From: Alphaproteobacteria bacterium
Lineage (GTDB): Bacteria > Pseudomonadota > Alphaproteobacteria > Rhodobacterales > Rhodobacteraceae
Assembly: GCA_030424645.1 (NCBI GenBank)
Contig: JAUHWP010000022.1
Coordinates: forward strand, 1 to 34,573
Direction of reading: 5' to 3'
DNA: 34,573 nt
Under the pieces are notes generated by a model. It did no database searches. It was not told where the DNA came from and worked only from the letters and a program-made list of their open reading frames with translations. The position numbers and the translations under genes were made by a program. This document shows positions 10,490 through 34,573 of this stretch, in pieces; position 1 is the first letter of the stretch, and every line of letters begins with the position of its first letter.

Positions 10490-10503
10490 GTCCCGCCCCC
10501 TCT

Positions 10504-16242: not shown

Positions 16243-16245
16243 ACG

Positions 16246-17562
16246 ATGGACGGTCCCAAACGAACCTCTGACGATACGATCAAGATCGGGCTGGCGGCGC
16301 CTGTGTATCTGGGCGCGCTGGCCTCTCTGGCGCTGTTGGTGTCCGCGTTCATCTGGATGTCATCGACCTTGATCACCGGGGCGGTGATCGCACCAGGCAA
16401 GGTGGTCGTGCGCGGCCTGCCAAAACAGGTGCAAAGTCTGGATGGCGGGGTGGTCAAGGAAATCCTGGTCAGGGATGGCGATGTGGTCAGCAAGGGCGAC
16501 GTGTTGCTCAGGCTGGACCCCAGCCTGTTGCAGATCAATCTTGAGATTTACCGCAACCGCCTGTCCGAAGTCGTCACCCGCGAGGCCCGGTTGGAATCCG
16601 AATACCAGGAGCTTGACGAGCCTGTTTTCGATATCGACACCTCGTATCTGCCCGACATCGACCTGACCCAGCATTTCAAAGGCCAGCGCGAGATTTTCGT
16701 GGCCCGGCGCGAGGTGTTGAGCGGGCGCAAGGAACAACTGGCGGAACGTATCCTGCAGTTCCGCAACCAGATTTCCGGGGTCGAAGCCCTGATCAGCGCC
16801 AAAGAGGACCAGTTGGCCTATGTCAGTCAGGAACGCGAAACCAAACAGGGGTTAAGCGAACAGGGGCTGGTGCGCGAAAGCGAATTGCTGGAATTGCAGG
16901 GGCGCGAATCCTCGCTGCTGGGGCAGATTGCCGAACATCAGTCCGAGCTTGCTCGAATCTATAACTCGATCCGCGACACCGAGCTTGAGATCCTGCAAGC
17001 CGACCGCGAGTTCAAGGAACAGGTGGTGACCGAACTGCGCACCACCACCGCCGAGCGGGAAGAGCTGATCCTGCAAATCGTCACCGTCGAGAAGCAGTTG
17101 GAGCGGATCGACATTCACGCACCAACCGACGGGATCGTGCATGAATTGCAGGCCACGACCGAAGGCGGTGTGGTGGCGCCCGAGGCCACGATCACCCAGA
17201 TCGTGCCCTTGTCTGACGGGGTCGAATTCAAGTTGCAGGTCGATCCGCGTTCCATCGACCAGGTGTTCGTGGGGCAGGTGGCGAAAGTGCTGTTCCCGGC
17301 CTTCAACCAGCGCACCACGCCGGAACTGTTCGGGACGGTGGCGGGAATCTCACCCACCTCGGTCGAAGACCCGCAGACCGGGCAAAGCTATTTCCGCATC
17401 GACCTGACCCTGCCGGTCGAGGAAATCGCGCGCCTTGGCGATGTCGAACTGATCCCCGGTATGCCCGTCGAAGCCTTCCTGCAAACCGGCGAACGGTCGG
17501 TTCTGACCTATCTGACCGAACCGCTTTTGCAACAGCTCAGACGCGCATTCCGCGAAGGATAG
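16246..17562 (+). CDS. Type I secretion membrane-fusion (adaptor) protein, HlyD/PrtE family
   Basis: This 438-residue protein has a short cytoplasmic N-terminus, one transmembrane helix (about 20-42) and a lipoyl/barrel-sandwich half (QSLDGGVVKEILVRDGDVVSKGDVLLRLD). A long alpha-helical hairpin follows (about 95-285, rich in Glu, Gln and Arg), then the second lipoyl half (RIDIHAPTDGIVHEL) and beta-barrel domains. This is the standard order for HlyD-type adaptors that link the inner-membrane ABC exporter to an outer-membrane channel. It follows the ABC gene by 3 nt and is clearly co-transcribed. Confidence 0.92.
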   Translation: MDGPKRTSDDTIKIGLAAPVYLGALASLALLVSAFIWMSSTLITGAVIAPGKVVVRGLPKQVQSLDGGVVKEILVRDGDVVSKGDVLLRLDPSLLQINLEIYRNRLSEVVTREARLESEYQELDEPVFDIDTSYLPDIDLTQHFKGQREIFVARREVLSGRKEQLAERILQFRNQISGVEALISAKEDQLAYVSQERETKQGLSEQGLVRESELLELQGRESSLLGQIAEHQSELARIYNSIRDTELEILQADREFKEQVVTELRTTTAEREELILQIVTVEKQLERIDIHAPTDGIVHELQATTEGGVVAPEATITQIVPLSDGVEFKLQVDPRSIDQVFVGQVAKVLFPAFNQRTTPELFGTVAGISPTSVEDPQTGQSYFRIDLTLPVEEIARLGDVELIPGMPVEAFLQTGERSVLTYLTEPLLQQLRRAFREG

Positions 17563-17692
17563 ACATATACCCGTGATCACCGGTTGTGGTTTTTTGGTCA
17601 TCCTGCCCCCGCAGTTTCCCAAAAAACGCAGTATTTCTTGGTGAAAACAGGGTTCTGTGCCAGTCTGCCCCCAATAACAACCGTAAATACAA

Positions 17693-17710
17693 CAGTCGCA
17701 AAGACGACTG
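17693..17710. repeat. Short inverted repeat upstream of the NodT-like gene
   Basis: CAGTCG (17693-17698) and CGACTG (17705-17710) flank a 6-nt spacer, about 20 bp before the start of the outer-membrane factor gene. No T-tract follows, so it is more likely an operator or leader hairpin than a terminator. The rest of the 169-bp gap (17563-17731) shows no gene. Confidence 0.35.
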
Positions 17711-17731
17711 ACGAGGCAGACGGGTAGCAAA

Positions 17732-19165
17732 ATGAAACATATGAACAGGCGCACTGCGCCGGTATTGGGATGCGTTCTGGCAGCCACAATCGGGCTTTCC
17801 GGTTGCGCAACGGACCAGCCTTACAAAGCTCCATTCTTCAAATTCTCCAAATCCTATTCAAGCGTCTCGTCACGGGCGGTTCCTGTGCCCTTGGCCAATG
17901 ATACCTGGTGGATGGGGTTCAAGGACCCGGTCTTCAACAAGCTGGTCACGCGCGCCCTTGCCGGAAACCTTGATCTTGAGATCGCCCGCGAAAAGGTGAT
18001 CGAGGCGCGGGCCAACCGCGACGCGGTGCCGGGATTGCTGAGCCTGACGCCGACCGCCACCCATCGCTATGCCCAACCGCCCGGCGGCACCGCAAGCCAC
18101 AGCACCAATGCCCGGCTTAACCTGGACTGGATGCTTGACCCATACGGTCTGCGCCGCCAGCAGATTCAGGCCGCCAGCGCCCGCGTCGACATCGCAGATG
18201 CCCAGGAAGACGCCGCGCGCCTGACCCTGCTTTTGAACCTGTCCAACGCCTATGTGGACCTGCGCTACAACCAGCGTCTTTTGAACCTGCGCCGCCAGCA
18301 ACTTGCCTCGCGGCGCAATGCGGTGACGCAAACCAAGCAATTGTTTGATCGTCGCGCCGCCACCCGTCTGGATGTGGTCCAGACCGAGGCCCTGGTCGCC
18401 GAGACCCAGACGCAAATTCCGCCGCTTGTCGCTGCGGTTCGCGCCGGCAAGACCGAAATCGCGGTTCTGACCGGTGTCGCGCCCGGACGCTTGGGCATCG
18501 ACCTTGATGGCAATGCCAGCCAGCCGCGCCCGTCGAAAACCCTGAAAACCGGCGTGCCCGCAGACATTCTGCGCAACCGGCCGGATATGCAGATCGCCGA
18601 GCGCAGCTATTACGAAGCGATCACCAATGTGGGCATTGCCCGCGCCGAGATGTATCCGTCCCTGTCGCTGAGCGGCATGATCGGATATGGCGCGACCAGT
18701 GGCCCCGACGGGCTTGAGTATTTCATCGGGCCGTCACTGAACCTGCCGTCACTGCCGATGAACAGCGAAAAGTCACGGGTTGCCGCACGCCAGTCTGCCG
18801 CGCGTCAGGCTTACGCGGGCTGGCAATCTGCCGTCCTGAATTCAGTCAGCGAGGTTGAAAGCGCCCTTGCTGCCTATCACGGCAGCCGCAGCGCCGTCGT
18901 TGAATCGCAGCGCCGCGTGCGCCTGAACGGCGAGGCGCGGGATCTGACCCAAGAGCTTCTGACACGCGAAGGCGCGACCATCCGCGATCTGATCAGCGCC
19001 GAGGAACGGATCGCCGACGCCGACACGGCCCTTGCCGACAACCTGCGCCAACTGGCCCGTAACTATGTGCGTCTGAACATCGCGCTGGGGGCAGGCAGCC
19101 AGTTCGGTGAACCCGAGGAAGAAACGGTGGTCGAGGTAAAATCGGCCAGTTCGGTGTCGAACTAA
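17732..19165 (+). CDS. Outer-membrane efflux channel lipoprotein, NodT/OprM (TolC superfamily)
   Basis: This 477-residue protein has a lipoprotein signal with lipobox LSGC (Cys25) and the duplicated TolC-type coiled-coil/beta-barrel architecture. Family phrases include PADILRNRPDMQIAERSYYEAITNVGIARAEMYPSL, which I cite by its key core RNRPD at about residue 282. RND-type outer-membrane factors such as OprM and NodT are lipidated in this way; classical T1SS TolC is not. It probably supplies the outer-membrane pore for the ABC/HlyD pair 170 bp upstream, or serves another pump. The start may be ATG 17732 or ATG 17741; GACGGG upstream slightly favours the first. Confidence 0.88.
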   Translation: MKHMNRRTAPVLGCVLAATIGLSGCATDQPYKAPFFKFSKSYSSVSSRAVPVPLANDTWWMGFKDPVFNKLVTRALAGNLDLEIAREKVIEARANRDAVPGLLSLTPTATHRYAQPPGGTASHSTNARLNLDWMLDPYGLRRQQIQAASARVDIADAQEDAARLTLLLNLSNAYVDLRYNQRLLNLRRQQLASRRNAVTQTKQLFDRRAATRLDVVQTEALVAETQTQIPPLVAAVRAGKTEIAVLTGVAPGRLGIDLDGNASQPRPSKTLKTGVPADILRNRPDMQIAERSYYEAITNVGIARAEMYPSLSLSGMIGYGATSGPDGLEYFIGPSLNLPSLPMNSEKSRVAARQSAARQAYAGWQSAVLNSVSEVESALAAYHGSRSAVVESQRRVRLNGEARDLTQELLTREGATIRDLISAEERIADADTALADNLRQLARNYVRLNIALGAGSQFGEPEEETVVEVKSASSVSN

Positions 19166-21553: not shown

Positions 21554-22243
21554 TCAGTGCCCGGTGCAGCGCAGGACCACGCCAATCGTCTGACCGAGAA
21601 TTTCGAGGTCTTTCTTCAGCGAAAGCTCGTAGTAGTATTTCGTGTCGAAGGTCGCACGCTGGGCGAATGTCGACTCGTTCCGGTCCGACACCTGCCACGG
21701 TCCGGTGATGCCGGGACGCAGGGCATAATAGGCGGCCCCCGGATACAGCGACTTCTGGTCTTCCATCATCGGGCGCGGCCCGACGATCGACATGTCGCCA
21801 AGCAACACGTTCCACAGCTGCGGCAGCTCGTCCATCGACGATTTGCGCAGGAATTTCCCGATCTTGGTAATCCGTGGGTCGTTCTTCAGCTTCTGTGTGC
21901 TGTCCCACTCGGCGCGGGCCTCGGGGTTGCTGTCCAGATAAGCTTCAAGACGCTGGTCGGCGTTCTTCACCATCGAGCGGATCTTGACCATGCTGTAAAT
22001 CCGACCGTCCTTGCCGATGCGACGCTGGCGATAGAACGGTTTGCCGCCATCAAGCGCGGCCAGGAGCAGCATGATCCCGATCAACGGTATGGCGATCGGC
22101 GCAGCTGCGATGACGAAAGCGATGTCAAACAGGCGCTTGAAGCGATCACGATAGGGTCGAATGGAAGAATCAGCTACGTAATAGTTTTGGCGTTTTACCA
22201 GCTTGGTGCTGGAACCCGAAAAGTCCTTAAAATGAGTCGTCAT
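21554..22243 (-). CDS. Initiating sugar-1-phosphate transferase (ExoY/WbaP family)
   Basis: This 229-residue protein has one N-terminal membrane helix (about 39-62, FDIAFVIAAAPIAIPLIGIML) and the catalytic domain of polyprenyl-phosphate sugar phosphotransferases. Typical phrases are FYRQRRIGKDGR, KNDPRITKIGKFLRKSSMDELPQ, LWNVLLGDMSIVGPRP and a C-terminal RPGITGPWQVS. It would transfer a sugar-1-phosphate to undecaprenyl phosphate to start repeat-unit assembly on the inner membrane. The usual KFR(T/S)M motif reads KIRSM here. ATG 22243 follows AAGGAAAG. It is the first leftward gene from the AT-rich divergent region. Confidence 0.9.
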   Translation of the reverse strand: MTTHFKDFSGSSTKLVKRQNYYVADSSIRPYRDRFKRLFDIAFVIAAAPIAIPLIGIMLLLAALDGGKPFYRQRRIGKDGRIYSMVKIRSMVKNADQRLEAYLDSNPEARAEWDSTQKLKNDPRITKIGKFLRKSSMDELPQLWNVLLGDMSIVGPRPMMEDQKSLYPGAAYYALRPGITGPWQVSDRNESTFAQRATFDTKYYYELSLKKDLEILGQTIGVVLRCTGH

Positions 22244-22775: not shown

Positions 22776-23702
22776 ATGAATTCCAACGAACTCTATACTG
22801 GGCATTTCGGATTGGCCGAACGGCCCTTTACTCTGGTGCCGGACCCGAGCTTTCTGTTTTGGTCCAAGCAGCACAAGCGTGCCTATGCGGTGCTGGAGTT
22901 CGGGGTCTTGTCACGCGCGCCGATCACCCTGATCACCGGCGAAATCGGATCGGGCAAGACCACGCTGGTCCAGAAACTGCTCAGCCAGATGGACGACAGC
23001 GTGCGTGTCGGTCTGCTGTCCAACGTGCAGGGCGACCGGGGCGAATTGCTGCAATGGGTGATGAACGCCCTGTCCATCCCGTTTGAACCCACGGAAAGCT
23101 ATGTGACCCTGTTCCAGCGCTTTCAGGAAAGCATCGTCAGCGAATATGCCGAAGGGCGCCGGGTGGTCCTGATCATCGACGAGGCGCAGAACCTGTCCAG
23201 CGAAGGGCTGGAAGAGATGCGGATGCTGACCAACATCAATGCCAACAAGGACGAGTTGATCCAGCTGATCCTTGTCGGCCAGCCCGAGCTGAAAGAAATC
23301 GTGCTCAGCCCCGGTATGCGCCAGTTGGCGCAACGGGTGGCCGCCAGCTTTCACCTTGAAGGCATGGATGAACCCACGGTGCGGTCATATATCAAACATC
23401 GCCTGAAGGTCGCGGGCGGCACCGGTCGCGAAATCACACCGCTGGCCTGCGGCGAGATTTTCAACGCCACCAAGGGCATCCCGCGCCTTGTCAACCAGCT
23501 TTGCGAATTGTCGCTTCTCTATGCCTGGAGCGGCAACAGCTCGCGCGTTTCGGTGAAGGCTGTGCGCAATGTTCTGGAAGACGGTGTTTTCTTTGCCAGC
23601 AATCTGACCGAGGAAGAGGCCGAACCCGAAGCAGACACAACCAAACCTTTGTTCCTGCGCGAGGGGCGGCGGGTTGACATACCCAAGAAGAAAACCGGAT
23701 AG
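22776..23702 (+). CDS. ExeA-like AAA+ ATPase of exopolysaccharide loci (XrtA-associated ATPase type)
   Basis: This 308-residue AAA+ protein starts with YTGHFGLAERPFTLVPDPSFLF, the typical N-terminus of ExeA/GspA-like ATPases in polysaccharide clusters. Walker A is GEIGSGKTT, Walker B VVLIIDEAQNLS, and a sensor region LILVGQPEL follows. Its C-terminal helical domain includes IFNATKGIPRLVNQLCE. Unlike ExeA it has no C-terminal membrane helix or peptidoglycan-binding domain. Its role in polysaccharide export is not well defined; a regulatory or assembly function is inferred from context. ATG 22776 has AGGA unusually close (2 nt). Confidence 0.85.
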   Translation: MNSNELYTGHFGLAERPFTLVPDPSFLFWSKQHKRAYAVLEFGVLSRAPITLITGEIGSGKTTLVQKLLSQMDDSVRVGLLSNVQGDRGELLQWVMNALSIPFEPTESYVTLFQRFQESIVSEYAEGRRVVLIIDEAQNLSSEGLEEMRMLTNINANKDELIQLILVGQPELKEIVLSPGMRQLAQRVAASFHLEGMDEPTVRSYIKHRLKVAGGTGREITPLACGEIFNATKGIPRLVNQLCELSLLYAWSGNSSRVSVKAVRNVLEDGVFFASNLTEEEAEPEADTTKPLFLREGRRVDIPKKKTG

Positions 23703-23798
23703 CTTCTGCGGAAATTGACAGCATGTTACGATGCCCGACCAGATTTCTGATACGAGTTGCGCAGACCGGCGGGTCTTGCGGTAAGGATTAAAGCGCCA

Positions 23799-25340
23799 AT
23801 GGCTTCAACGACTATAAAATACTACCGATCAATCTTTGTGCGGCGTCTTCCGTATTTCCTGACGGTCGCCATGGTCATCGGTGCGGCGTCGATCATCATG
23901 GCGATGTCGCTGCCGCCCGCCTATGTCTCGCGGATGACGCTGATCGTGGAATCGCCGCAGATTCCCGACGAACTGGCCGCTTCGACCGCCCGCACCCCGG
24001 CGCAGGAGCAATTGCAGATCGTCGAACAGAAGCTGATGACCCGCGCCAATCTGCTTGAGATCGCCAACAAGCTGCAACTGCTTGAGGGTCAGGACGAAAT
24101 GACGCCGGACCGGATCGTGCAAGCGATGCGGGCGCGCACCTCGATCCGCAGCACCGCCGGGCTGGATCAGGCAGCGCTGATGACGATCAATTTCGAAGCC
24201 CCGACCGGGCAAAGCGCGGCCGGGGTGCTGAACGAATACCTGACTCTGATCCAGAAAGAAGACGTTCAGTCGCGCACCGGTCGCGCCACCCAGACGCTTG
24301 AGTTTTTCGAACAGGAAGTGTCGCGGCTCAACCAGGAACTGGCCGAACGCAGTGCCCGCATCCTTGCCTTCAAGACCGAGAACGTGTCGGCCCTGCCGGA
24401 AAGCCTGGACTATCGCCTGAGCCAGCAATCCCTGATGCAGGAACGCCTGGCGCAGCTGGAGCGCGAAACCGTCAGCCTGGAAGAACAGCGCCGGCGGCTG
24501 GTGCGGATCTTCGAAACGACCGGTCAGGTCGGTGGGCTGGCCGGCCCGGCCATGACGCCGGAACAGAAACAACTGGAAGAACTGCGGTCCGAGCTGAACA
24601 ACGCGCTTGCCGTCTATTCTTCGGACAACCCGCGGGTCAAGATGCTTCAAGCGCGGATTTCCGTGCTGGAAGATCAGGTTGCCACCGTGCAGCCCGACGA
24701 GGACGGCCAGGAAGTGACCGGCAACTCGCTTCTGGATGTGCAGCTGGCCGAGATTTCGGCGCGGCAGAAGGTTCTGGATGAACAGAAGGACAGCGCCCGC
24801 AAACAGCTGACGCGACTGACCGAATCCATTGAACAGACACCGACCAACGCCATCCGCCTGGACGAGCTTCAGCTGGATTACGAGAACCTTCAGCAGCAAT
24901 ACAACACCGCCGTCGACCGCCTGTCACGCGCCAGCACCGGCGAACGGATCGAAGTCATGTCGCGCGGTCAGCGGATTTCGGTGATCGAACCGCCCGCCGT
25001 TCCCAGCCAGCCCAGCAAACCCAACCGGGCAATGATTGCCGGGGGCGGCAGCGTGTTCGGCATTCTGGCCGGGCTGGGTCTGATCGTGCTTCTGGAAATC
25101 CTGAACCGGTCGATCCGCAGGCCCGAGGACCTGGTGTCCAAGCTGGGCATCGCACCGCTGGCCACCATCCCCTATATCACCGCCGCTGGCGAAAACTCGC
25201 ACCGTCGCAAGCTGCGCATTCTTGGCGTGATCGTCATTCTGCTTGGCATTCCTGTCGTCGTTTACGCCGTGCACACATTCTATCAGCCGCTTGATCTGTT
25301 GGCCGAACGGATCATGGATAAGATCGGCGTGCGCTGGTGA
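23799..25340 (+). CDS. Polysaccharide co-polymerase / chain-length determinant (Wzz/GumC-like)
   Basis: This 513-residue protein has an N-terminal membrane helix (about 17-37), a Wzz-type domain beginning YVSRMTLIVESPQIPDEL, and a long coiled-coil periplasmic region (about 150-380). Near residues 400-420 is the Pro-rich IEPPAVPSQPSKPN motif preceding a second membrane helix, and a third hydrophobic helix lies near the C-terminus. It would control chain length and export with the CpsD-like kinase encoded next. There is no fused kinase domain. I chose ATG 23799 behind AAGGA; a TTG at 23757 adds residues without homology. Confidence 0.9.
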   Translation: MASTTIKYYRSIFVRRLPYFLTVAMVIGAASIIMAMSLPPAYVSRMTLIVESPQIPDELAASTARTPAQEQLQIVEQKLMTRANLLEIANKLQLLEGQDEMTPDRIVQAMRARTSIRSTAGLDQAALMTINFEAPTGQSAAGVLNEYLTLIQKEDVQSRTGRATQTLEFFEQEVSRLNQELAERSARILAFKTENVSALPESLDYRLSQQSLMQERLAQLERETVSLEEQRRRLVRIFETTGQVGGLAGPAMTPEQKQLEELRSELNNALAVYSSDNPRVKMLQARISVLEDQVATVQPDEDGQEVTGNSLLDVQLAEISARQKVLDEQKDSARKQLTRLTESIEQTPTNAIRLDELQLDYENLQQQYNTAVDRLSRASTGERIEVMSRGQRISVIEPPAVPSQPSKPNRAMIAGGGSVFGILAGLGLIVLLEILNRSIRRPEDLVSKLGIAPLATIPYITAAGENSHRRKLRILGVIVILLGIPVVVYAVHTFYQPLDLLAERIMDKIGVRW

Positions 25341-25380
25341 TGGCGCGCAAACAGAACAGCTCAGAGAGGATCTGATCGCA

Positions 25381-26199
25381 ATGGAAAAGCTTCAGGCCGC
25401 CATTGAAAAGGCACGCAGGCAACGCGATGGCAAATCCCCCGCCCGGCGCACTCAGGACCGACCGGCCAAGCCGCCTGCGTCGATGTCCGCCGCCTGGGCG
25501 GAACTGACGCCCTTTGAAGTATCGGCATCGACAGCCCGGAAAAACCGGCTGGTATCCTTGGGTGGCGGGACGGCTGCCGGGCCATTCGACATGCTGCGCA
25601 CGCGGATTTTGCAACAGGCCAGCAACAATGGCTGGAAGCGGATCGCACTGGTGTCGCCGCACAGCGCCTGCGGCAAGACCACGACCGCGGCCAACCTGAT
25701 TTTCAGCTTCGGTCGGCAATCGGATCTGCGCACCATGGTCCTGGATCTGGACCTGCGCCGTCAGGGGCTGGCGAAGGTTCTTGAACTGCAGTGCGACGGC
25801 AATATGGGCGAGGTTCTGCAAGGTAAGAAAAGCTTTGCCGAACACGGTCGCCGCTTCGGCAACAACGTGGCCGTCGGTTTGAACAGCGGCGAGATCGCGA
25901 ATGCCTCGGAAATCCTGCAAAGCAGCCAGACCAGGGTCGTTCTTGACGAGCTTCAGGACGATTACGACCCGGATATCATGCTTTTGGACATGCCGCCCCT
26001 GATCGGGGCGGACGACAATTTCGGGTTCCTGCAGAATGTCGACTGCGCGCTTCTGCTGGCCGAAGCCGAGCGCACGACCGTCGAACAGGTCGACATCGCC
26101 GAACGCCAACTGTCCGAACTGACCACCGTCATGGGCGTGGTTCTGAACAAGAGCCATTTCAGCGACGGCGCGTATGGATACGGATATGGCACCGCCTGA
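25381..26199 (+). CDS. CpsD/CapB-like BY-kinase (polysaccharide tyrosine autokinase)
   Basis: This 272-residue protein has a P-loop reading SPHSACGKTTTAANL (GKT at 98-100), the BY-kinase Walker A-prime strand TMVLDLDLRR (about 118-127) and a Walker B-like DIMLLDMPP. The C-terminal tail contains Tyr265, Tyr267 and Tyr269 alternating with Gly. Such proteins autophosphorylate C-terminal tyrosines and cycle with the Wzz-like partner encoded just upstream to regulate chain length and export. I chose ATG 25381, preceded by GAGAGGA. A frame opening at 25243 overlaps the Wzz gene without homology. The last 26 nt overlap the glycosyltransferase start. Confidence 0.85.
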   Translation: MEKLQAAIEKARRQRDGKSPARRTQDRPAKPPASMSAAWAELTPFEVSASTARKNRLVSLGGGTAAGPFDMLRTRILQQASNNGWKRIALVSPHSACGKTTTAANLIFSFGRQSDLRTMVLDLDLRRQGLAKVLELQCDGNMGEVLQGKKSFAEHGRRFGNNVAVGLNSGEIANASEILQSSQTRVVLDELQDDYDPDIMLLDMPPLIGADDNFGFLQNVDCALLLAEAERTTVEQVDIAERQLSELTTVMGVVLNKSHFSDGAYGYGYGTA

Positions 26200-27052
26200 C
26201 GCCGCGATCATCATCCCCCATTACAATGACCCGGAACGGCTGGCGCGGTGCCTTGAGGCTTTGTCGCGCAACGACCTGTCACGGGTCGAGGTTCTGGTCG
26301 TCGACAACAACTCGCCGCAACCGCCTTCAGAGGTGCAGGCCCGGTTTCCCGATGTCCGGTTCGTCATCGAGACCGAGAAAGGCGCCGCTGCCGCGCGCAA
26401 CCGCGGTGTGACCGAGACCGCCGCGCCGCTTCTGTTCTTTATCGACGCCGATTGCGTGGCCGCCGACGATTGGGTCGCCAAGGCGCATGAGGTCGCGCCG
26501 ATGGCCGACCTGATCGGGGGCCGTGTCGATGTGTTCGACGAAACCCCGCCGCCGCGCAGCGGGGCCGAGGCGTTCGAGGCGGTGTTTGCCTTCAACTTCC
26601 AGAATTACATCGAGGTTCAGGGCTTTACCGGGTCGGGCAATCTTGTCACCACCCGCGAGGTCTTTGAAGATGTTGGCGGGTTTCGCGGCGGTGTATCGGA
26701 AGACCTGGACTGGAGCACCCGCGCCGTGTCCAACGGGCACAAGCTGATCTATCGCGAAGATTTGGTGGTCAGCCATCCGTCACGCTCCGACTGGGCGGCG
26801 CTGCGACACAAATGGCGGCGCCTGACGCAAGAACTGTTCGGCGTGAACGGCAACACGCCGCGTGACCGCGCGAAATGGGCGGTGCGGGCGCTGGCCATGC
26901 CGGTCAGTGCGCTGGTGCACACGCCGAAGGTTCTGGGCAGCGACAAGCTGGGCGGCTGGGGTGAGAAGCTGCGCGCCGTGGGCACCCTGTTCCGGCTGCG
27001 CCTTCAGCGCATGATCTGGATGCTGAAACAGGCGATGGGGCAGGAGATCTAG
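26174..27052 (+). CDS. Glycosyltransferase family 2
   Basis: This 292-residue GT-A enzyme has the GT2 nucleotide-binding start (AAIIIPHYNDPERLARCLEAL), VEVLVVDNNS, GAAAARNRGV and the DxD-type metal motif FFIDADC (about residue 93). Acceptor-side segments GSGNLVTTREVFEDVGGF and SEDLDWSTRA follow. It would add a sugar from a nucleotide donor to the growing lipid-linked repeat. A C-terminal hydrophobic/amphipathic part may tether it to the membrane. The start could be ATG 26174 or ATG 26186; both lie inside the codons for the kinase's Tyr-Gly tail. Its stop overlaps the convergent rhomboid stop in CTAG. Confidence 0.9.
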   Translation: MDTDMAPPDAAIIIPHYNDPERLARCLEALSRNDLSRVEVLVVDNNSPQPPSEVQARFPDVRFVIETEKGAAAARNRGVTETAAPLLFFIDADCVAADDWVAKAHEVAPMADLIGGRVDVFDETPPPRSGAEAFEAVFAFNFQNYIEVQGFTGSGNLVTTREVFEDVGGFRGGVSEDLDWSTRAVSNGHKLIYREDLVVSHPSRSDWAALRHKWRRLTQELFGVNGNTPRDRAKWAVRALAMPVSALVHTPKVLGSDKLGGWGEKLRAVGTLFRLRLQRMIWMLKQAMGQEI

Positions 27053-27714
27053 CGCGGCCTTGCCTGCCCGGCCCGGCGTTTCCTGCGCCTCCATGCAAGG
27101 GCGGCGGCGGCCAGCCATCCGGCGGCAAACCCGCCCAGATGCGTTTCCCACGCCAGAAGCCCCCCCATGAGCAACCAGAGCAACAGGTTCAGAACGCCAA
27201 GGATCAGGACAGTTTTCAGGACTGGCCACTGATCCAGCCGAAGCCGCCGCCGGTCCGCCCAACGCCAATACAGGATCGCGCCTACCAGCCCGAACAGCGC
27301 GCCCGACGCCCCCACCATGGGCCGCGCCGACAGGGTCAGGGCACCAAACAATGCCCCGCCGCCAATGGCCGACAGCAGATAGATCAGCACAAACCCCTTT
27401 GTCCCGGCGCGCACGATCACCATGCGCCCGATCAGCCACAGCGTCAGCATGTTGCCCAGCAGATGAATGATGCCACCGTGCAGGAAGGCATAGGTGACGA
27501 ACATCGTCCATGGCTGGGCGGCATAGTTCGGGCGCCAATTGTGCAGAAGCCCCGCCCAGAACGCCGCGTTCTGATAGACCAGTGGCCGCCATTGCTTGGT
27601 GCCGACCAGCCCCAGATCGGCGGCGAACAGCACCAGCTCGATCCCCACATTCAGGGCGATCAGGCCAAGGATCATGGCCCGGGCAGGGGGGCTGAGATAC
27701 GGCTGGGCAATCAT
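27049..27714 (-). CDS. Rhomboid family intramembrane serine protease
   Basis: This 221-residue protein has about six transmembrane helices. The rhomboid residues are present: catalytic Ser137 in GASGALFG, catalytic His192 in HLGGFAAGW, and the oxyanion/structural His84 with Asn88 in IIHLLGNM. It would cleave transmembrane substrates within the inner membrane. It is transcribed against the polysaccharide genes and shares stop-codon bases with the GT2 gene. I chose ATG 27714; a GTG at 27747 would add 11 residues, and neither has a strong ribosome-binding site. Any link to the polysaccharide system is positional only. Confidence 0.88.
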   Translation of the reverse strand: MIAQPYLSPPARAMILGLIALNVGIELVLFAADLGLVGTKQWRPLVYQNAAFWAGLLHNWRPNYAAQPWTMFVTYAFLHGGIIHLLGNMLTLWLIGRMVIVRAGTKGFVLIYLLSAIGGGALFGALTLSARPMVGASGALFGLVGAILYWRWADRRRLRLDQWPVLKTVLILGVLNLLLWLLMGGLLAWETHLGGFAAGWLAAAALAWRRRKRRAGQARPR

Positions 27715-27853
27715 GAGGCAGAATTGCCCGCTTGTCCGACGATACACAAGGCTGAAAAACGTCTGACCGCTGGTGGCACCGGTGGAAACTTGTTATAAGC
27801 GAAGCATAGTTAATCCTGTTCTTCGCAGCCTCTTTGGCGTGGGCATTGCTTTC

Positions 27854-28327
27854 ATGACTTCATCCTCTTCTTCCCGCACATCCCCCCGTATTCTGGCGGT
27901 CGCCTCGGCCGGGGGGCATTGGCACCAACTGGGGCAGGTCTGCGCGGCGTTCGACCCGGCGGATGTGACCTATGTGACCACGCTGGACGGGTTGCCGCAG
28001 AAATCCGGCTTCACCCGGTTCGCGCTGGTTCAGGATTGCAACAAGAACGCACCCTTCAAGGCCCTGATCTGCACGATGCAGATGGCGGGTGTCCTGATGC
28101 GAACACGCCCGGACGTGGTCATCACCACCGGGGCCTTGCCCGGTGTGATCGCCCTGGTGCTGGGCTGGATGATCCGCCGCCGCACCATCTGGGTGGACAG
28201 CATCGCCAACGCGGAAGAGGCGTCATCGTCCGGAAAACTCGCGAAACGATTTGCGACGCTTTGGCTGTCGCAATGGGAAAGCGTGGCGCAGGCCGAGGGC
28301 GGCCGGTACGAGGGGTCGCTTCTATGA
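27854..28327 (+). CDS. Alg14/PssD-like membrane subunit of a split glycosyltransferase
   Basis: This 157-residue protein has the family's N-terminal SAGGHWHQL motif (about residues 19-28), YVTTLDGLPQKSG, and TRPDVVITTGALPGVIALVLG as the membrane-proximal segment near residues 95-116. It ends WVDSIANAEEASSSGKLA and is of usual length. Alg14-type proteins anchor and activate an Alg13-type catalytic partner, which here follows with an ATGA overlap. Together they form one GT-B glycosyltransferase. The start is uncertain: ATG 27854 lacks a clear ribosome-binding site, and GTG 27839 or GTG 27773 is possible. Confidence 0.85.
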   Translation: MTSSSSSRTSPRILAVASAGGHWHQLGQVCAAFDPADVTYVTTLDGLPQKSGFTRFALVQDCNKNAPFKALICTMQMAGVLMRTRPDVVITTGALPGVIALVLGWMIRRRTIWVDSIANAEEASSSGKLAKRFATLWLSQWESVAQAEGGRYEGSLL

Positions 28328-28794
28328 TCTTCGTGACTGTTGGCACGCAACTGCCGTTCGATCGCATGATCGCGATGATCGACGACCTGGCGGCCGAACT
28401 GTCGCTTGAGGTCTTCGCCCAGACCGCCGATCCGACCGCGAGCTATACCCATATCAAACACGCGCCGTTCCTGACGCCGGATGAATATGACGACATCATC
28501 GGGCGCACGACGGTTCTGGTCGGCCATGCCGGCATTGGCACCATCCTGACTGCAAAACGGGTCGAAAAACCGGTGATCGTGATGCCGCGCAAGGCATCGC
28601 TGGGCGAACATCGCAACGAACACCAACTGGCCACTGCGCGCCACCTGGAAGGCCATGAAGGCGTCTATGTCGCCCATGACCGCGCCCGGCTTGCCACCTT
28701 GTTGCAGACCCCCGACCTGACGCCCGCAAGCTTCCGCGACACGCCGGAAAAGACCCGGCTGCAAACCTATCTGCGTGATTTCGTCTATGGATAG
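28324..28794 (+). CDS. Alg13/PssE-like catalytic subunit of a split glycosyltransferase
   Basis: This 156-residue protein starts MIFVTVGTQLPFDRMI, the hallmark of Alg13/PssE/Cps14G-type subunits. It contains a donor-binding core with VGHAGIGTILTAKRVEKPVIV and a PRKASLGEHRNEHQ motif. It should bind the nucleotide sugar and, joined to the Alg14-like subunit, transfer it to a lipid-linked acceptor. The start ATG overlaps the upstream stop (ATGA), giving stoichiometric coupling. The sugar cannot be read from the sequence. Confidence 0.88.
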   Translation: MIFVTVGTQLPFDRMIAMIDDLAAELSLEVFAQTADPTASYTHIKHAPFLTPDEYDDIIGRTTVLVGHAGIGTILTAKRVEKPVIVMPRKASLGEHRNEHQLATARHLEGHEGVYVAHDRARLATLLQTPDLTPASFRDTPEKTRLQTYLRDFVYG

Positions 28795-28801
28795 ACCGGG
28801 G

Positions 28802-28818
28802 GCGGGCATCCGTCCCGC
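28802..28818 (+). terminator. Weak terminator-like hairpin after the Alg13-like gene
   Basis: GCGGG (28802-28806) and CCCGC (28814-28818) form a 5-bp stem with a 7-nt loop, followed by a T-rich but interrupted GTCTTTGTCTT. It may terminate or attenuate transcription before the methyltransferase gene. The remaining 160 bp to 28977 show no gene. Confidence 0.35.
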
Positions 28819-28977
28819 GTCTTTGTCTTAAACAGGTTAAGCACTCGTTTTTTCATCGGATTGATGCTATGCTCGGCCCTGAGCGCAGGGTTAAGGTCCA
28901 GAAATTTTTGCTGGCCTGTCAACTGCGTGCCGAGATTTGAATGACGGAGCTATTGTCAGGCAAGGGGAAGGGCCGCG

Positions 28978-29802
28978 ATGAGCACTCTGAAAGAAAAGAC
29001 CAAGATTCTGGTCGGCCGGTTGGGCGAAACGCTGTTTCCACGAGTTGTCGAAGATATCGAGACCGGGCGGCACAGCGGGCGCGATCTGCGTTTGAAACGT
29101 GCCATCCTTTATGCCCGCAGCCAGCGCGCGAAGAAACAGGGCGATGACCAAACCAGTCAGAACACGCTGCACCAGTTCTGGAAGACCGATACCGCCAACG
29201 ATTTCTATATGCTCTATGGGCACCGGTTTCAGGATTGGTTCCTTGGGCCGCATCTGAAGTTGATCGACCAGCTTGAAGACTACATGCAGGACAACAGCAT
29301 CGACCAGATGATCGAGGTCGGCTGCGGCGATGGGCGGGTGCTTGATTATTGCTCGAAACGGCTGACCGGCATCAAGCGGTTCACCGGGCTGGACATCAAC
29401 CCGATGATCATCGAGGCCAACAAAACCCGCTATGCCGACAATCCCGCCCTGACTTTCATTTCCGAAAACGCGCAGGACTGGGTGCCCGAACATACCGGGC
29501 CGCGGACCTTGTTGTTCACCTATGGCGGCGTTCTGGAGTATTTTTCACAAACTGGACTGGAGGCATTATTTGAACGGCATACCCGGCAACCCGACAGCGT
29601 GATTGCCTTTGTTGAACCCCTTGACCCCGGGCATGATTTGAAAAATGATCCCGACAGCCATGTTTTTGGGCAAGAGAGTTCATTTTCACATAACTACAGA
29701 CATATATTGGAAAAATTTGATTACCATGTTCGATTTGAAGAAGAGCACCAAATGGGTCCGATCCGATGGATCATGATAATGGCAACAAAGTCGAAGCCCT
29801 AG
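28978..29802 (+). CDS. SAM-dependent class I methyltransferase
   Basis: This 274-residue protein carries motif I MIEVGCGDGRVLDY (111-124), an acidic strand end FTGLDINPMII, and a motif II/III region (ALTFISENAQDW, TLLFTYGGVLEYF) of the Rossmann-like methyltransferase fold. The first 100 residues form a helical N-terminal domain. Its acceptor is unknown; a sugar, lipid or peptide of the neighbouring pathways is possible. ATG 28978 has a GGGGAAGGG site. The last 170 bp or so (from about 29630) are visibly richer in A/T and rare codons than the rest of the gene, yet the frame and fold continue. Confidence 0.85.
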   Translation: MSTLKEKTKILVGRLGETLFPRVVEDIETGRHSGRDLRLKRAILYARSQRAKKQGDDQTSQNTLHQFWKTDTANDFYMLYGHRFQDWFLGPHLKLIDQLEDYMQDNSIDQMIEVGCGDGRVLDYCSKRLTGIKRFTGLDINPMIIEANKTRYADNPALTFISENAQDWVPEHTGPRTLLFTYGGVLEYFSQTGLEALFERHTRQPDSVIAFVEPLDPGHDLKNDPDSHVFGQESSFSHNYRHILEKFDYHVRFEEEHQMGPIRWIMIMATKSKP

Positions 29803-29807
29803 GATAC

Positions 29808-30623
29808 ATGACCTCTAAGGCGGCATCCGGGTCCGGCTTTCTGGCGACATTGCGCCGCCATGAAGTCTGGGTGTTTCTGTTCGGGATCGTCATCCTGAAC
29901 GCCTGTTTCATCACGGCCATCGCCAACGGAATTCTGCCGCGCGGCCTTTATAACTGGGGCCGGTTCATCCTTCTGGCCTCGTATCTTGTTTTCGTGGTGT
30001 ATCTGGCACGACAGATGGGCGGGGTATGGTCGCTGATCAAACCCATGGGCGTGTGGCGCGTGCCGCTGAAGTGGTTTCTTCTCGCTGCCATTTGGGGTGC
30101 GATGAACGCCATTATCGTGCTTGCCCTGAAAGGCCTGATCCTTGGCACCGGACTGTCCGAAGTCCACGCCAGTTTCGAAGTCATCTCGCGCCCGCGATTG
30201 CTGATGGTGATCGTCATCAGTTCCTTCATCGGTGAGATCGTCTGGATCGGTTACGCGGTTCAGAAACTGTCGGTGCGATTTACCCCCTTCGTATCAGCCC
30301 TGATTGTCGGGCTGTTCTGGACGGCGTGGTGGACCCCGATGGTGTTTCTGCAGATCGGCATTGTGCCTGAACTGCCCTTGGGGGGGCTTTTGCTGAACCA
30401 GACCGGTATCGCGATCATGTGCGCGTATTTCTATGCGCGCACCGGCAGCGGGCTGGTGGTGCTGACCATGCAGATTTTCTTCAACAGCTCGATTCTGGTG
30501 TTCCCCATTGCCCCGACGACGGGCGGGGTTGCGACATATTGGGGCTTTGCCATATTTTATTTCACGCTCAGCGCGCTGTTTTTCGCGCGATTTGGACCGA
30601 AACCCTTGCTTATAAAAGAATAA
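29808..30623 (+). CDS. CPBP-family membrane protein with degenerate active site
   Basis: This 271-residue protein has about eight hydrophobic segments. Residues 140-180 and 205-228 align by eye with CPBP/CAAX intramembrane endopeptidases (GEEIGWRGYxxxxL, WxxWHxP and HxxxN motifs). The catalytic positions are altered: Glu143 is present but the second Glu is Ile144, the Arg is Ile147, the motif-2 His is Trp175 and the motif-3 His is Gln222; only Asn226 remains. It is therefore probably not a protease but a structural or binding relative. I chose ATG 29808, 5 nt after the methyltransferase stop, over ATG 29766, which overlaps that gene. Confidence 0.7.
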   Translation: MTSKAASGSGFLATLRRHEVWVFLFGIVILNACFITAIANGILPRGLYNWGRFILLASYLVFVVYLARQMGGVWSLIKPMGVWRVPLKWFLLAAIWGAMNAIIVLALKGLILGTGLSEVHASFEVISRPRLLMVIVISSFIGEIVWIGYAVQKLSVRFTPFVSALIVGLFWTAWWTPMVFLQIGIVPELPLGGLLLNQTGIAIMCAYFYARTGSGLVVLTMQIFFNSSILVFPIAPTTGGVATYWGFAIFYFTLSALFFARFGPKPLLIKE

Positions 30624-30765
30624 TCCTGCGTATCGGTCCGGGTGACGAGCATCCGACACCACAGTTGTCTTATGCCCGGCAATGTCGTTGACTAAGCCAT
30701 CCAGACCGCGCGCGAAAAGCTGGCCGTGTTTCGGCCGGTGGTAAACCTGTTATAGGAGTTCGATC
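30624..30765. promoter_or_regulatory. Leader region of the NRPS gene
   Basis: This 142-bp gap contains a hairpin GGCCG-TGTTT-CGGCC at 30722-30736 with no T-tract, so it is not an obvious terminator. An AGGAG ribosome-binding site at 30754-30758 lies 7 nt before the GTG start at 30766. TTGACT at 30689 is -35-like, but no matching -10 was found. Confidence 0.4.
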
Positions 30766-33700
30766 GTGAAGGCTGTTTTCTGTGGGGACGGGACGCTTCT
30801 GGCCCAATGCGCCGAGGTATTCGCAGGGCAAGGGCATCAGATCACGGGCATTCTGACCGACGATCCGGGCCTGCAACGCTGGGCCGATCAGAACGGGCAC
30901 CCGTTGGTCGGCACGCTGGACGATCCGCACCTTTCGGATGTGACCTGCGATTATCTGTTCAACATCGCAAACACCCGACCCATCCCCGACAAGGTGATCG
31001 CCAACCCCGACCGCCATGCCATCAACCTGCATGATGGCCCGCTGCCGCAACGCGCCGGGGCAAACGTGCCCTTCTGGTCGGTGCTGGAGGGGCAAAAGAC
31101 CCATGCGGTGACATGGTACACGCTGGGGCCTGGCATGACCGCAGAAGCCGCCCTGAAGATCGAGACCTTCGAGATTTCCGAGGGTGAGACCACGTTCAGC
31201 CTGAACACAAGATGTTACGAGGCGGCGCAGGCCTCCTTCTCCGAGCTGCTGGCCAAGCTGGAACAGGGGGGCGGGCAAGCCGAGCCTCTGGGCGCAGCGG
31301 ATCGTGTCTATACCCGCACGGACCGGCCCGCATCGCTGGGTCTGCTGGATATGTCCCAGCCTGCCGAAAGTCTTTCCCAAACCGTCCGGGCGCTGGATTT
31401 CGGCACGATGGCAAACCCGATGGGGCGGGCCAAGCTGTGGACCGGATCGCATGTGATACTGGTGTCGGGGCTGGAGATTGGCACGACCAGCACCGCACCC
31501 GCCGGAACGGTGGTTCAGGCCAGCGGCGACCGTCTGTCCGTGGCCACGGCGGATCGCGATGTAACCCTGACCGGCCTGACCGATCTGGCGGGCGGAGCGG
31601 TGGACATTTCTGCGCTGAACGGTGCCCGTTTACCGGCTCCAGGCCCCATGCCCGATGATCTTCTGGCCGCCATGGCAGCCGGTGAAGATGACTGGATGGC
31701 CACGCTGCATGGGGCTGCGGCAGCGGCGATCCCGCCCTATCCGCGCGCGCATGGGACGGGGCAGGGGATGCTGGCCCTGCCGCTTGAGGCTGCACCTGTG
31801 GATGCCGACCATCTGTTGGCCGCATGGGTGGCGTGGGTCGCCGGGCTGACCGGGCAGACTGCACTGTCATTGGCCCTGCCGTCACGCGTGGCGCATCCCG
31901 GTCTTGCACCGGTTCTGCCGGTCACGATCCACATTGCCCGAAAGGCGCGCATCCCGGATATCGTGGCCGCGATGCGCGCGGCACGCGCACAGGACGATAC
32001 CTACGCACCGATGGCGGCCGATCTGCCCGCACGCATGGACGACCCCGCCGTGCGGGAACGGATCACGCAGGTTTTGTCGGTTGTCGGCTGCGACGCCGCG
32101 ACCGTTCCGACGGGGGCCACGCTTGCGCTGGCGGCGGACACCATGACCCTGCATCTGCGCGAAGGGGCGTTCGCGCCGGATGTCGCCCGCGCGATGGCCC
32201 GGGACTTCACCGTCTTCCTGACGGCGTTCCAGGCAACCCCCGACGCCCCGCTGGCAACGCTGCCCCTTGGGGCACCGATGCAGGCCGCCCGGATGGGGGA
32301 AGCGTTCGACAGCACCAATCGCGTGCACGAAGCCTTTGCCGCGCAAGCGGTTGCCACCCCCGACGCCCCCGCGCTTGAGGTGGGCGAGGCGCGGTTCACC
32401 TATCGCGAGCTGGATCAGGCCGCAGACGCACTCGCCGCTGCACTTTCCGACCGCGGGGCTGCACGCGGCAAGATCGTGGGGCTGTGCCTTGAACGCTCGG
32501 CCGACCTGGTGATCGCGATGCTGGCAATTCTGAAGTCGGGCGCTGCCTATCTGCCGCTGGACCCGTCTTATCCGGCGGATCGCATCACCTATATGATCGA
32601 GGACAGCGAGGCACACCTGATCGTCGCCAGCCCCTCGGCGGCGGCGCGGTTGGGTCTGGACCCGGACAGAACCATCTTCCCGCAGGCCACAAGCGACACA
32701 CCGTTTGACACGGCGGGCACGTCGGAAGACCTGTTCAACCTGATCTATACATCGGGGTCGACCGGCAAACCCAAAGGCGTGATGATCCCGCACAAAACGG
32801 TGATGAACTTCTTTACCGCGATGGACGAAGCGGTGCCGCTGACGCCACAGGCCCGCATTCTGGGCGTCACATCGGTGTCATTCGACATCTCGGTGCTGGA
32901 AATTTTCTGGATATTGTCGCGCGGGGCTACGCTGGTCCTGCAAAGCGATGGGGCAAGCGAAACACGGCTGCCCGATTTTTCGCTGTTCTATTTCGCGTCC
33001 GAAGCATCGGGGTCCGGCCATCACGCCTATCGCCTGCTGCTGGAAGGTGCACGGTTTGCCGATGAAAACGGGTTTCACGCGATCTGGACGCCCGAACGCC
33101 ATTTTCATGCTTTCGGCGGGCTTTATCCCAACCCTGCCGTTGCCGCCGCCGCGGTTGCGGGGATCACCAAAAACGTACAATTACGCGCCGGGTCTTGTGT
33201 CATTCCGCTGCATCATCCCGTGCAGATCGCCGAGGATTGGGCGCTGGTCGACAACCTGTCCAACGGGCGGGCCGGGGTGGCGCTGGCATCGGGCTGGCAA
33301 CCCAACGACTTTATCCTGAACCCACAGAACTTTGCAGACCGTAAAGACGTGATGCTGGAAAACGTCGAAACCCTGCGCAAGCTGTGGCAGGGCGAAACGC
33401 TCAGCTTCGATGGCCATGACGGCAAACCGGTCGCGCTGGAAATCCATCCCCGCCCGGTTCAGAAAGACATCCCCCTGTGGCTGACCGCCGCAGGCAACCC
33501 GGAAACCTTTGCCGCCGCCGCCCGGCTGGGCTGCGGGGTTCTGACCCATTTGCTGGGGCAAAGCTTCGAAGAGGTCGCCGAGAAAATCCGCGCCTATCGC
33601 GTGGCATGGCGCGACGCGGGGCACGAGGGGGCAGGCCATGTCGTCCTGATGCTGCACAGTTTCGTCGGCGAAGACGAGGATACGGTGCGCGAACTGGCCC

Positions 33701-34573
33701 GCGAACCGATGAAAAGCTATCTGCGCAGCTCGGTCGATTTGCTGAAGAAAGCGTCCTGGACCTCGCCCCTGATTGCGGAACGCGCGGAAGGCAAGGGCCT
33801 GACCCCGCAGGAGATGTTCGAGAAGGAAGAGCTGTCGCCCGAAGACCTTGATGTGCTCTTGGATCATGCCTTCGACCGCTACTATCGCAGCTCGGGCCTG
33901 TTCGGCACGCCCGACAGCGCGGGCGAGATCGTGCGCCGGGTTGCCGAAATGGGCGTGGACGAGGTTGCCTGCCTGATTGATTTCGGCATCGACACCGATG
34001 TGGTTCTGGAAAACCTGCCCAATATCAAGGCGTTGATGGAAAACCTGCAAAATCAGGGCGGGGTGGATCGCAAGGCAACCGTGGCCGAAGAGATTATGGA
34101 ACGCAACATCACCCACCTGCAATGCACGCCGCCCATGGCCACCTTGCTGGCCGCTGACGATGCCGGCAGGATGGCGCTGGGGCATCTGGACGTGATGATG
34201 GTTGGCGGCGAGGCGTTTCCACCCGACCTTGCCCGCACCATTCGTGATGCCATGTCGGGCACGCTTCTGAACATGTATGGCCCGACCGAGGCAACGATCT
34301 GGTCCTCGGTCGCCCGGCTGGACGAGGTTGGCGCGCGTATTCCGCTGGGCGATCCGGTGACGAACACGGTTCTTTCCATCCGCTCGCCCGAGGGGCGCGC
34401 GCTGCCCGACCTGGTCGAAGGCGAGCTTTGGATTGGTGGCGAGGGTCTGGCCGTCGGTTACTGGAAGCGCCCCGATCTGACCGAAGAGCGGTTCGTGGAA
34501 ACCCCCGAAGGGCGGTTCTATCGCACCGGCGACCTGGTGCGCCGCCGTCTGGATGGCACGCTGGAATTCCTGG
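30766..34573 (+). CDS. Nonribosomal peptide synthetase with formyltransferase-like N-terminus and adenylation domain interrupted by a luciferase-like monooxygenase (partial, runs off the right edge)
   Basis: One frame stays open from GTG 30766 (AGGAG 7 nt upstream) to the window end, giving 1269 codons. Residues 1-165 resemble the Formyl_trans_N fold (INLHDGPLP at 86-94) and 190-290 its C-terminal domain (PAESLSQTVRALDFG). Residues 330-510 resemble only the C-terminal half of a condensation domain, with no HHxxxDG. An adenylation domain starts near 515: FTYRELD at 544, LKSGAAYLPLDPSYP at 589, IYTSGSTGKPKG at about 660 and FDISVLE at 706. From about 735 to 1095 a bacterial-luciferase-like flavin monooxygenase domain of the MupA/Atu3671 type is inserted (IWTPERHFHAFGGLYPNP). 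Adenylation then resumes with NMYGPTE at 1169 and YRTGDL at 1252. Specificity residues resemble the glycine code. The carrier domain and later modules lie outside the window. Confidence 0.9.
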   Translation, partial: MKAVFCGDGTLLAQCAEVFAGQGHQITGILTDDPGLQRWADQNGHPLVGTLDDPHLSDVTCDYLFNIANTRPIPDKVIANPDRHAINLHDGPLPQRAGANVPFWSVLEGQKTHAVTWYTLGPGMTAEAALKIETFEISEGETTFSLNTRCYEAAQASFSELLAKLEQGGGQAEPLGAADRVYTRTDRPASLGLLDMSQPAESLSQTVRALDFGTMANPMGRAKLWTGSHVILVSGLEIGTTSTAPAGTVVQASGDRLSVATADRDVTLTGLTDLAGGAVDISALNGARLPAPGPMPDDLLAAMAAGEDDWMATLHGAAAAAIPPYPRAHGTGQGMLALPLEAAPVDADHLLAAWVAWVAGLTGQTALSLALPSRVAHPGLAPVLPVTIHIARKARIPDIVAAMRAARAQDDTYAPMAADLPARMDDPAVRERITQVLSVVGCDAATVPTGATLALAADTMTLHLREGAFAPDVARAMARDFTVFLTAFQATPDAPLATLPLGAPMQAARMGEAFDSTNRVHEAFAAQAVATPDAPALEVGEARFTYRELDQAADALAAALSDRGAARGKIVGLCLERSADLVIAMLAILKSGAAYLPLDPSYPADRITYMIEDSEAHLIVASPSAAARLGLDPDRTIFPQATSDTPFDTAGTSEDLFNLIYTSGSTGKPKGVMIPHKTVMNFFTAMDEAVPLTPQARILGVTSVSFDISVLEIFWILSRGATLVLQSDGASETRLPDFSLFYFASEASGSGHHAYRLLLEGARFADENGFHAIWTPERHFHAFGGLYPNPAVAAAAVAGITKNVQLRAGSCVIPLHHPVQIAEDWALVDNLSNGRAGVALASGWQPNDFILNPQNFADRKDVMLENVETLRKLWQGETLSFDGHDGKPVALEIHPRPVQKDIPLWLTAAGNPETFAAAARLGCGVLTHLLGQSFEEVAEKIRAYRVAWRDAGHEGAGHVVLMLHSFVGEDEDTVRELAREPMKSYLRSSVDLLKKASWTSPLIAERAEGKGLTPQEMFEKEELSPEDLDVLLDHAFDRYYRSSGLFGTPDSAGEIVRRVAEMGVDEVACLIDFGIDTDVVLENLPNIKALMENLQNQGGVDRKATVAEEIMERNITHLQCTPPMATLLAADDAGRMALGHLDVMMVGGEAFPPDLARTIRDAMSGTLLNMYGPTEATIWSSVARLDEVGARIPLGDPVTNTVLSIRSPEGRALPDLVEGELWIGGEGLAVGYWKRPDLTEERFVETPEGRFYRTGDLVRRRLDGTLEFL

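Follow-up and report, generated by a model that had tools for sequence, protein, structure and literature searches.

Contig JAUHWP010000022.1 of a Rhodobacteraceae genome (GCA_030424645.1), called C203 here and analysed over its entire length of 34573 bases as the window, ends within the gene of a nonribosomal peptide synthetase (NRPS) module in which a luciferase-like monooxygenase (LLM) interrupts the adenylation (A) domain behind a formyltransferase (FT)-like region. Anatomy and gene order were read from the sequence, and on them we base the proposal, to which we give an about even chance, that the module is the loading half of a two-protein line of NRPS and polyketide synthase (PKS) in a surface-polysaccharide locus, where glycine would be loaded, hydroxylated at its alpha carbon and extended once before the unit is passed to the polysaccharide. 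What is new here, as judged from conserved residues, is that the FT core is decayed in the window and in two congeners and the core motifs of the A domain and the oxygenase are kept.

In the proposed mechanism the A domain would load glycine onto the carrier and the inserted oxygenase would hydroxylate the alpha carbon. The ketosynthase (KS) of the partner protein would add one malonyl unit, which would be reduced and dehydrated, and a thioesterase (TE) would release a small acyl unit or pass the unit to sugar chemistry. Among the relatives, most have an FT that looks active and would cap the nitrogen, so that alpha-hydroxyglycine, a hemiaminal, is kept from breakdown. In the window lineage the start would be free hydroxyglycine, its breakdown product glyoxylyl (with loss of ammonia) or an otherwise capped unit. 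Entry of the product into polysaccharide is the weakest link of this explanation.

Anatomy and distribution of the interrupted module

The frame (30745-34572, plus strand) stays open up to the contig end, the module protein is read from 30766 and the contig stops within its A domain (Table 1). Pfam places AMP-binding in two stretches of the window protein and Bac_luciferase at residues 751-1073. The oxygenase lies between motifs A4 and A5 with both A-domain parts present; the A-domain end and the carrier are read in the congeners only. An earlier note on this DNA, made from the letters alone, had placed the insert at 32970-34050 between FDISVLE and NMYGPTE. Both motifs do flank it, the borders found here (~32974 to ~34086) are close to those, and the LLM features singled out in the note are present (IWTPERHFHAFGG at 33082-33120 and VALASGWQPNDF at 33277-33312). 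The insert scores 493 bits with NCBIfam TIGR04020, the MupA/Atu3671 luciferase-like monooxygenase family (match 32977-34035; curated cut-off 244.45 bits). A chance motif match is ruled out by this score and by the relatives at the 80 best loci, nearly all of which align with the window protein from its N terminus right through to its last residues. The A domain and the oxygenase were modelled together (pLDDT 85.9; pTM 0.56, hence an unsure domain orientation); the best Foldseek match was the oxygenase (OX) domain of PuwE (6ket), with 46% identity and a TM of 0.92 on the target, and NRPS A domains came next. Hydroxylation at the alpha carbon of glycine is proposed because the PuwE domain, whose own role is a proposal, is related and MtaG of myxobacteria is analogous.

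The N-terminal part was addressed with a profile of 43 sequences (518 residues of the window protein) compared with the PDB. Profile positions 4-300 match ArnA and Met-tRNA formyltransferase, and positions 313-546 match only the C-terminal part of condensation (C) domains (McyB from residue 198, EntF from 196). In none of the 105 family proteins does an HHxxxDG motif precede motif A3. When the structure of the window's N-terminal part was predicted (pLDDT 91.7), formyltransferases were its best Foldseek matches; Pfam Formyl_trans_N gave 20.5 bits on the window protein alone, below the cut-off of 26.1. The FT-like region is thus borne out by profile and fold, and the earlier note was right to place the insert in a first module behind it. 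The note had missed the half condensation domain between the FT-like region and the A domain, and the altered FT core.

By motif position, the substrate code of the window A domain is DILCMGMIW. The code of glycine A domains is DILQLGLIWK, and the window domain is predicted to load glycine. The pattern DILC.GM[IV]W fits 99 of 103 proteins and all 103 start with DIL. These 103 were obtained with a motif and length filter from 110 loci (L070, L079, L082, L083, L102, L122 and L134 gave no protein), and L058, with a disturbed FT stretch, and L135, in which the stretch is missing, were retained in all counts of 103. Five further A domains with an LLM insert align with the window only from residue 476 or beyond; the pattern fits three of them (L075, L076, L081), and two are off-code: DILGLGMIW in Burkholderia glumae and DMVCLGMVW in Streptomyces NBC_01006.

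Of 248 genomes from the window's family (one genome per genus), 84 have a TIGR04020 match above the cut-off, as do 19 of 398 genomes of the phylum. Most of the strong matches listed sit in open frames of ~1500 residues or more, and the full protein was read at the loci examined individually. A scan of named genomes gave at least 580 relatives. The best 80, which were retained, belong to alpha-, beta- and a few gammaproteobacteria, Myxococcota, Acidobacteriota, Gemmatimonadota, Chloroflexota, Actinomycetota, Rhodothermota and Cyanobacteriota. The domain order is widespread, not rare, and the A code near-invariant across phyla. The earlier note needs correction on this point, and the insert belongs to an already named family. 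In a quick tree of the oxygenase (40 open forks) the window groups with M344 (Aliiroseovarius, L003) and G144 (L055) with a support of 100, near Methylobacterium, Hyphomonas and Comamonadaceae. Elsewhere in the tree, nearly identical copies were seen in Comamonas sp. KCTC 72670 and Myxococcus sp. CA023 (L097 and L099; end branches 0.03 and 0.018), which reflect either a recent transfer or a mislabelled assembly.

Table 1. Module domains and neighbouring genes in the window; the right border of the FT-like domain and both borders of the condensation half are approximate
Feature	Position	Strand	Basis
Formyltransferase-like domain, ArnA / Met-tRNA formyltransferase fold	30766..31653	+	Profile vs PDB, structure model, Foldseek, residues
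Condensation domain (NRPS), C-terminal half	31654..32319	+	Profile match; HHxxxDG half absent
A domain part 1, through motif A4	32320..32973	+	Pfam AMP-binding; IYTSGSTGKPKG 32743-32778, FDISVLE 32881-32901
MupA/Atu3671-type luciferase-like monooxygenase insert	32974..34086	+	TIGR04020, Foldseek
A domain part 2, motifs A5 and A7, cut by contig end	34087..34573	+	NMYGPTE 34270-34290, YRTGDL 34519-34536
Rce1/CAAX-protease-like protein	29766..30623	+	Pfam; conserved beside the module, 91-92% in two congeners (same place), 42% in G144
Methyltransferase	28978..29802	+	Pfam; conserved beside the module, 85-87% in the two congeners and 36% in G144
Glycosyltransferase family 28 C-terminal domain protein	27919..28794	+	Pfam; 78-80% in two congeners
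Protein without Pfam match	27139..27798	+	63-65% identical in two congeners
Glycosyltransferase family 2	26174..27052	+	Pfam; 92-93% in two congeners
CpsD-like ATPase (polysaccharide export type)	25243..26199	+	Pfam CbiA 27.3 bits, barely above cut-off
Wzz/GNVR-like chain-length protein	23757..25340	+	Pfam GNVR 19.4 bits, under cut-off
AAA ATPase	22776..23702	+	Pfam AAA_22; 92% in one congener
Bacterial sugar transferase (Bac_transf)	21554..22243	-	Pfam 194.6 bits; 93% in one congener

Residues of the formyltransferase-like core

The catalytic triad of formyltransferases is Asn-His-Asp, and the Asp is needed in the known enzymes. In the window the Asn and His are kept and the Asp is replaced by Thr (within 31126-31152). 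The same site is occupied by Ile and Val in the two congeners (G259 and G263), and all three members of the lineage also carry other residues in place of a His close by and of a Gly. The complete triad is found in 100 of the 103 proteins, the exceptions being the window and the two proteins with a disturbed or missing stretch. A frameshift as the source of the lost Asp was considered and rejected: VDxG does not occur in the other two plus-strand frames, and the loss is common to the two congeners. Changes were also counted at conserved positions, defined as those on which 95% or more of 102 background proteins agree. In the FT, 7-8 of 32 such positions are changed in each of the three lineage members, compared with a background median of 0, a 95th percentile of 2 and a maximum of 24 (in the truncated L135).

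Because the triad Asp, the near-by His and a Gly are lost, the FT is, of the domains in the window lineage, the likeliest to be dead; it has probably ceased to formylate, and a formylated start is doubtful in this lineage since its FT lacks the Asp. An altered FT that stays active despite the replacements, or that serves a different group, would be in keeping with the retained Asn and His and with a fold predicted at high confidence, but this is improbable given that all three members have replaced the neighbouring His and the Gly together with an Asp on which known formyltransferases depend. The decay does not appear to be confined to the FT: A-domain part 1 is changed at 6-7 of 55 conserved positions in the lineage (background maximum 4) and the oxygenase at 5 of 106 (95th percentile 3, maximum 7). 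The core strings YTSGSTG, FDISVLE, WTPERHFHAFGG and YGPTE are intact throughout the lineage. The lineage thus offers a natural experiment on the role of the FT domain, and lineages with and without an intact FT give a testable contrast.

The partner synthase and the polysaccharide locus

Of 21 genomes examined in the window's genus, 4 encode the module protein at E 1e-100 or better, and the window genome is one of these. G262 has its match at the coordinates seen on the plasmid of Aliiroseovarius sp. M344, so that the genus is most likely Aliiroseovarius. At 83% identity, the proteins of G259 and G263 fill open frames of 1497 and 1496 residues and include the carrier domain. G259 has the gene order of the window, running sugar transferase, AAA, GNVR, CpsD-like, glycosyltransferase family 2 (GT2), unknown, glycosyltransferase family 28, methyltransferase, Rce1-like, module and PKS; G263 shares the window gene order from inside the GNVR gene onward and has the PKS after the module. 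The G263 PKS is a frame of 2031 residues with the order KS, acyltransferase (AT), ketoreductase, dehydratase, acyl carrier protein (ACP) and TE, and it has no C or A domain. In G259 the PKS was seen following the module; the domain reading to the end is from G263 only. In the window genome a PKS remainder from AT to TE, closing with ACP-TE, ends at base 55821 of the 55823 of contig C148. Most likely the assembly breaks between C203 and C148, and from the spacing in G259 the gap would hold about 2.5 kb with the carrier domain and the KS. The extension to the right advised in the earlier note has accordingly yielded the carrier in two congeners, with a PKS after it, and for the window itself it would go through the presumed link to C148.

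A PKS was obtained from 95 of 109 loci. These were chosen by KS and AT motifs, which are thus no test; the TE motif G[FY]SGG[GA] is present in 83 of the 95. Beyond the carrier domain, examples including L003 and G263 have a tail that is basic and rich in alanine and arginine (such as RGAARAAARLARMGRR). A strict motif for this tail was found in only 28 of 98 proteins, and the tail could dock on the PKS. The window genome (G000) has a further NRPS/PKS frame of 3448 residues on contig C134 (~24650-34120), where a KS is joined by A-domain pieces that form two sets. As a continuation of the module it was rejected on account of these pieces and of its place in the interior of another contig.

At least two polysaccharide gene types were found in 16 of 20 family neighbourhoods and at 53 of the 80 best named-genome loci, and in none of 20 controls. 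For linked GT2 the counts were 18/20, 50/80 and 0/20, and for phosphopantetheinyl transferase (PPTase) 17/20, 52/80 and 0/20. PKS were present in 20/20 neighbourhoods and 74/80 loci, and the PKS reference matched 3 of the 20 controls. The neighbourhoods are the longer-contig picks from the 30 best of the 84 genomes above cut-off. Several of the 80 loci lie on short contigs, and missing genes are partly due to truncation. The controls are 20 regions of the same contigs, within 15-65 kb of the locus in G020 and G247 and farther away in the rest. CpsD-like homologues occur at 30 and Wzz/GNVR-like homologues at 41 of 129 loci, 20 of the 129 being controls. In L068 and L069 the CpsD-like homologues adjoin a Wzz-like gene, a position taken in sister loci by matches to the CpsD annotated in L022. 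Pfam scores exceed the cut-off for the sugar transferase, GT2 and PPTase; the Wzy- and Wzz-like names rest on scores under the cut-off together with the locus context. The pair of module and PKS also lies beside genes annotated for capsule and polysaccharide on a Deinococcus plasmid, a type I PKS is present among polysaccharide genes at the G259 locus, and polysaccharide genes were detected at three sphingomonad loci (L105, L117, L121) outside a 78-row clade of the oxygenase tree.

Several points weigh against the proposed explanation. The reference proteins for the neighbourhood counts were drawn from loci of the same family and from the window. The window clade is separate from the 78-row clade (support 100) that holds most polysaccharide loci, so that the window is a further case of polysaccharide genes outside that clade, and the window GT2 does not share the position of the GT2 linked to the cassette there. 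In the window's wider clade, the loci of Sneathiella (L082, L083) and Ramlibacter (L084, L086) gave no polysaccharide gene, and the Sneathiella and most Ramlibacter/Comamonadaceae loci nearest the window clade show none; M344 has little beyond three glycosyltransferases and an exosortase. No PPTase was matched within the window, and the physical join of C203 to C148 is one that we infer. The glycine code was assigned by motif position against an uncalibrated table. Activity of the A domain and the oxygenase is not assured in the window lineage, because it carries Y665N (before A3), R827Q and F1007S (oxygenase) and T1183A (after A5) at positions invariant in 102 of 102 background proteins. No product was found in the literature searched, which covers few subscription papers.

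In another reading the line makes a free small molecule, for signalling, metal binding (a metallophore) or defence, beside which the polysaccharide genes just happen to lie. Outside the large clade, FT-A(LLM)-peptidyl carrier protein (PCP) and a PKS occur in several relatives with no polysaccharide gene detected nearby, and a domain of the same fold works in the free lipopeptide line of PuwE (PMC4219810). The joint occurrence of polysaccharide gene types at the best loci and neighbourhoods, absent from the controls, and the annotated capsule genes of the Deinococcus plasmid argue the other way, and we consider a free product unlikely. The rhizobial PKS RkpA has been proposed to supply a lipid anchor or carrier for polysaccharide, and a single PKS module with a TE in polysaccharide loci would suit such a repeatedly acting enzyme. 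An amino-acid starter and an oxygenase are not expected in a fatty anchor, and no Pfam enoylreductase domain was found in seven PKS proteins scanned (one partial), which makes this quite improbable. The new way of starting a peptide envisaged in the earlier note is very unlikely: a C-A-PCP unit does lie between the ketide step and the TE on a partner of 3082 residues in the more distant relatives M344 and G144, but the G263 PKS and the C148 remainder have no C or A domain and a TE after the ACP, and an amino acid-ketide chain is the most likely outcome because a one-module PKS of this kind follows the module in G263.

Assembly lines of the peptide and polyketide type are usually regarded as makers of free natural products. 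If the product of the proposed loading module and its PKS decorates a polysaccharide, two fields are linked and a common orphan cluster is explained. In a broader form, which we put forward tentatively and hold at less than even confidence, a dedicated line spread over several phyla would build an alpha-hydroxylated, usually N-formylated glycine with one unsaturated C2 unit for Wzx/Wzy-type polysaccharides, and the window lineage, without formylation, would make a different decoration.

Other genes were observed in these regions. A type I secretion-like row (ABC transporter, HlyD, outer-membrane efflux protein) occupies 14500-19165 of the window on the plus strand, and a similar ABC/HlyD pair lies near the Shinella cassette (L024). 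A subtilase-family protease at 8933-10627 of the window (minus strand) adjoins a PAP2 phosphatase-like gene. A protein weakly like DUF4886 (15.2 bits, under cut-off) at 20297-21235 of L023 recurs near the cassette in 6/20 and 29/80 loci and is possibly an acyl-handling enzyme. A nitrous-oxide reductase cluster (NosR-, NosZ- and NosD-like and ABC genes) is found near the module/PKS pair in G259 (L195, 726-7858) and M344 (L003, 10357-18795).

Comparison with known systems

In the literature searched, with its few subscription papers, no characterised pathway with this domain order was found; the earlier note had held that a match to such a pathway, domain for domain, would refute it. Nor was a description found there that combines a half condensation domain, an interrupted glycine-type A domain, a one-module PKS, a polysaccharide locus and a lineage with decayed FT. 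The domain family is already named and the parts are of known kinds. With the MupA/Atu3671 family the insert shares the domain, at twice the cut-off; the family covers the domain only and says nothing on module or locus.

The PuwE oxygenase of puwainaphycin shares its fold with the insert. It is situated between PKS and NRPS modules, whereas the window oxygenase is inside an A domain, and it is proposed to yield, with an aminotransferase domain, a 3-amino-2-hydroxy acyl chain (PMC4219810). For fabrubactin, the flavin monooxygenase FbnE is the proposed source of the alpha-hydroxycarboxylates (PMC12971057). Phaeobacter inhibens has a PKS and an NRPS gene, Inhi_1972 and Inhi_1974 (PMC4062626), with a single gene between them, a spacing also seen in the PKS-GT2-FT-A(LLM) cassette; judged from the gene numbers alone, they may be the same genes. 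This cassette is present at locus L135, in a Phaeobacter metagenome-assembled genome.

The myxobacterial MtaG and MelG carry a monooxygenase inside a glycine-type A domain, and the window protein carries one inside an A domain predicted to be of that type; they are terminal modules making amides, whereas the window protein would be a loading module. It has no complete condensation domain in front, and in the congeners a PKS comes after it, unlike a terminal module of the MtaG type. The initiation module of LgrA (F-A-PCP, linear gramicidin) has in common with the window a formyltransferase fold at the start of an NRPS. In LgrA this F domain adjoins the A domain (match to F up to about residue 172, match to A from about 204), and in the window the half condensation domain lies between them. 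The window lineage differs further from the LgrA type in that the triad Asp is lost and the partner is a PKS.

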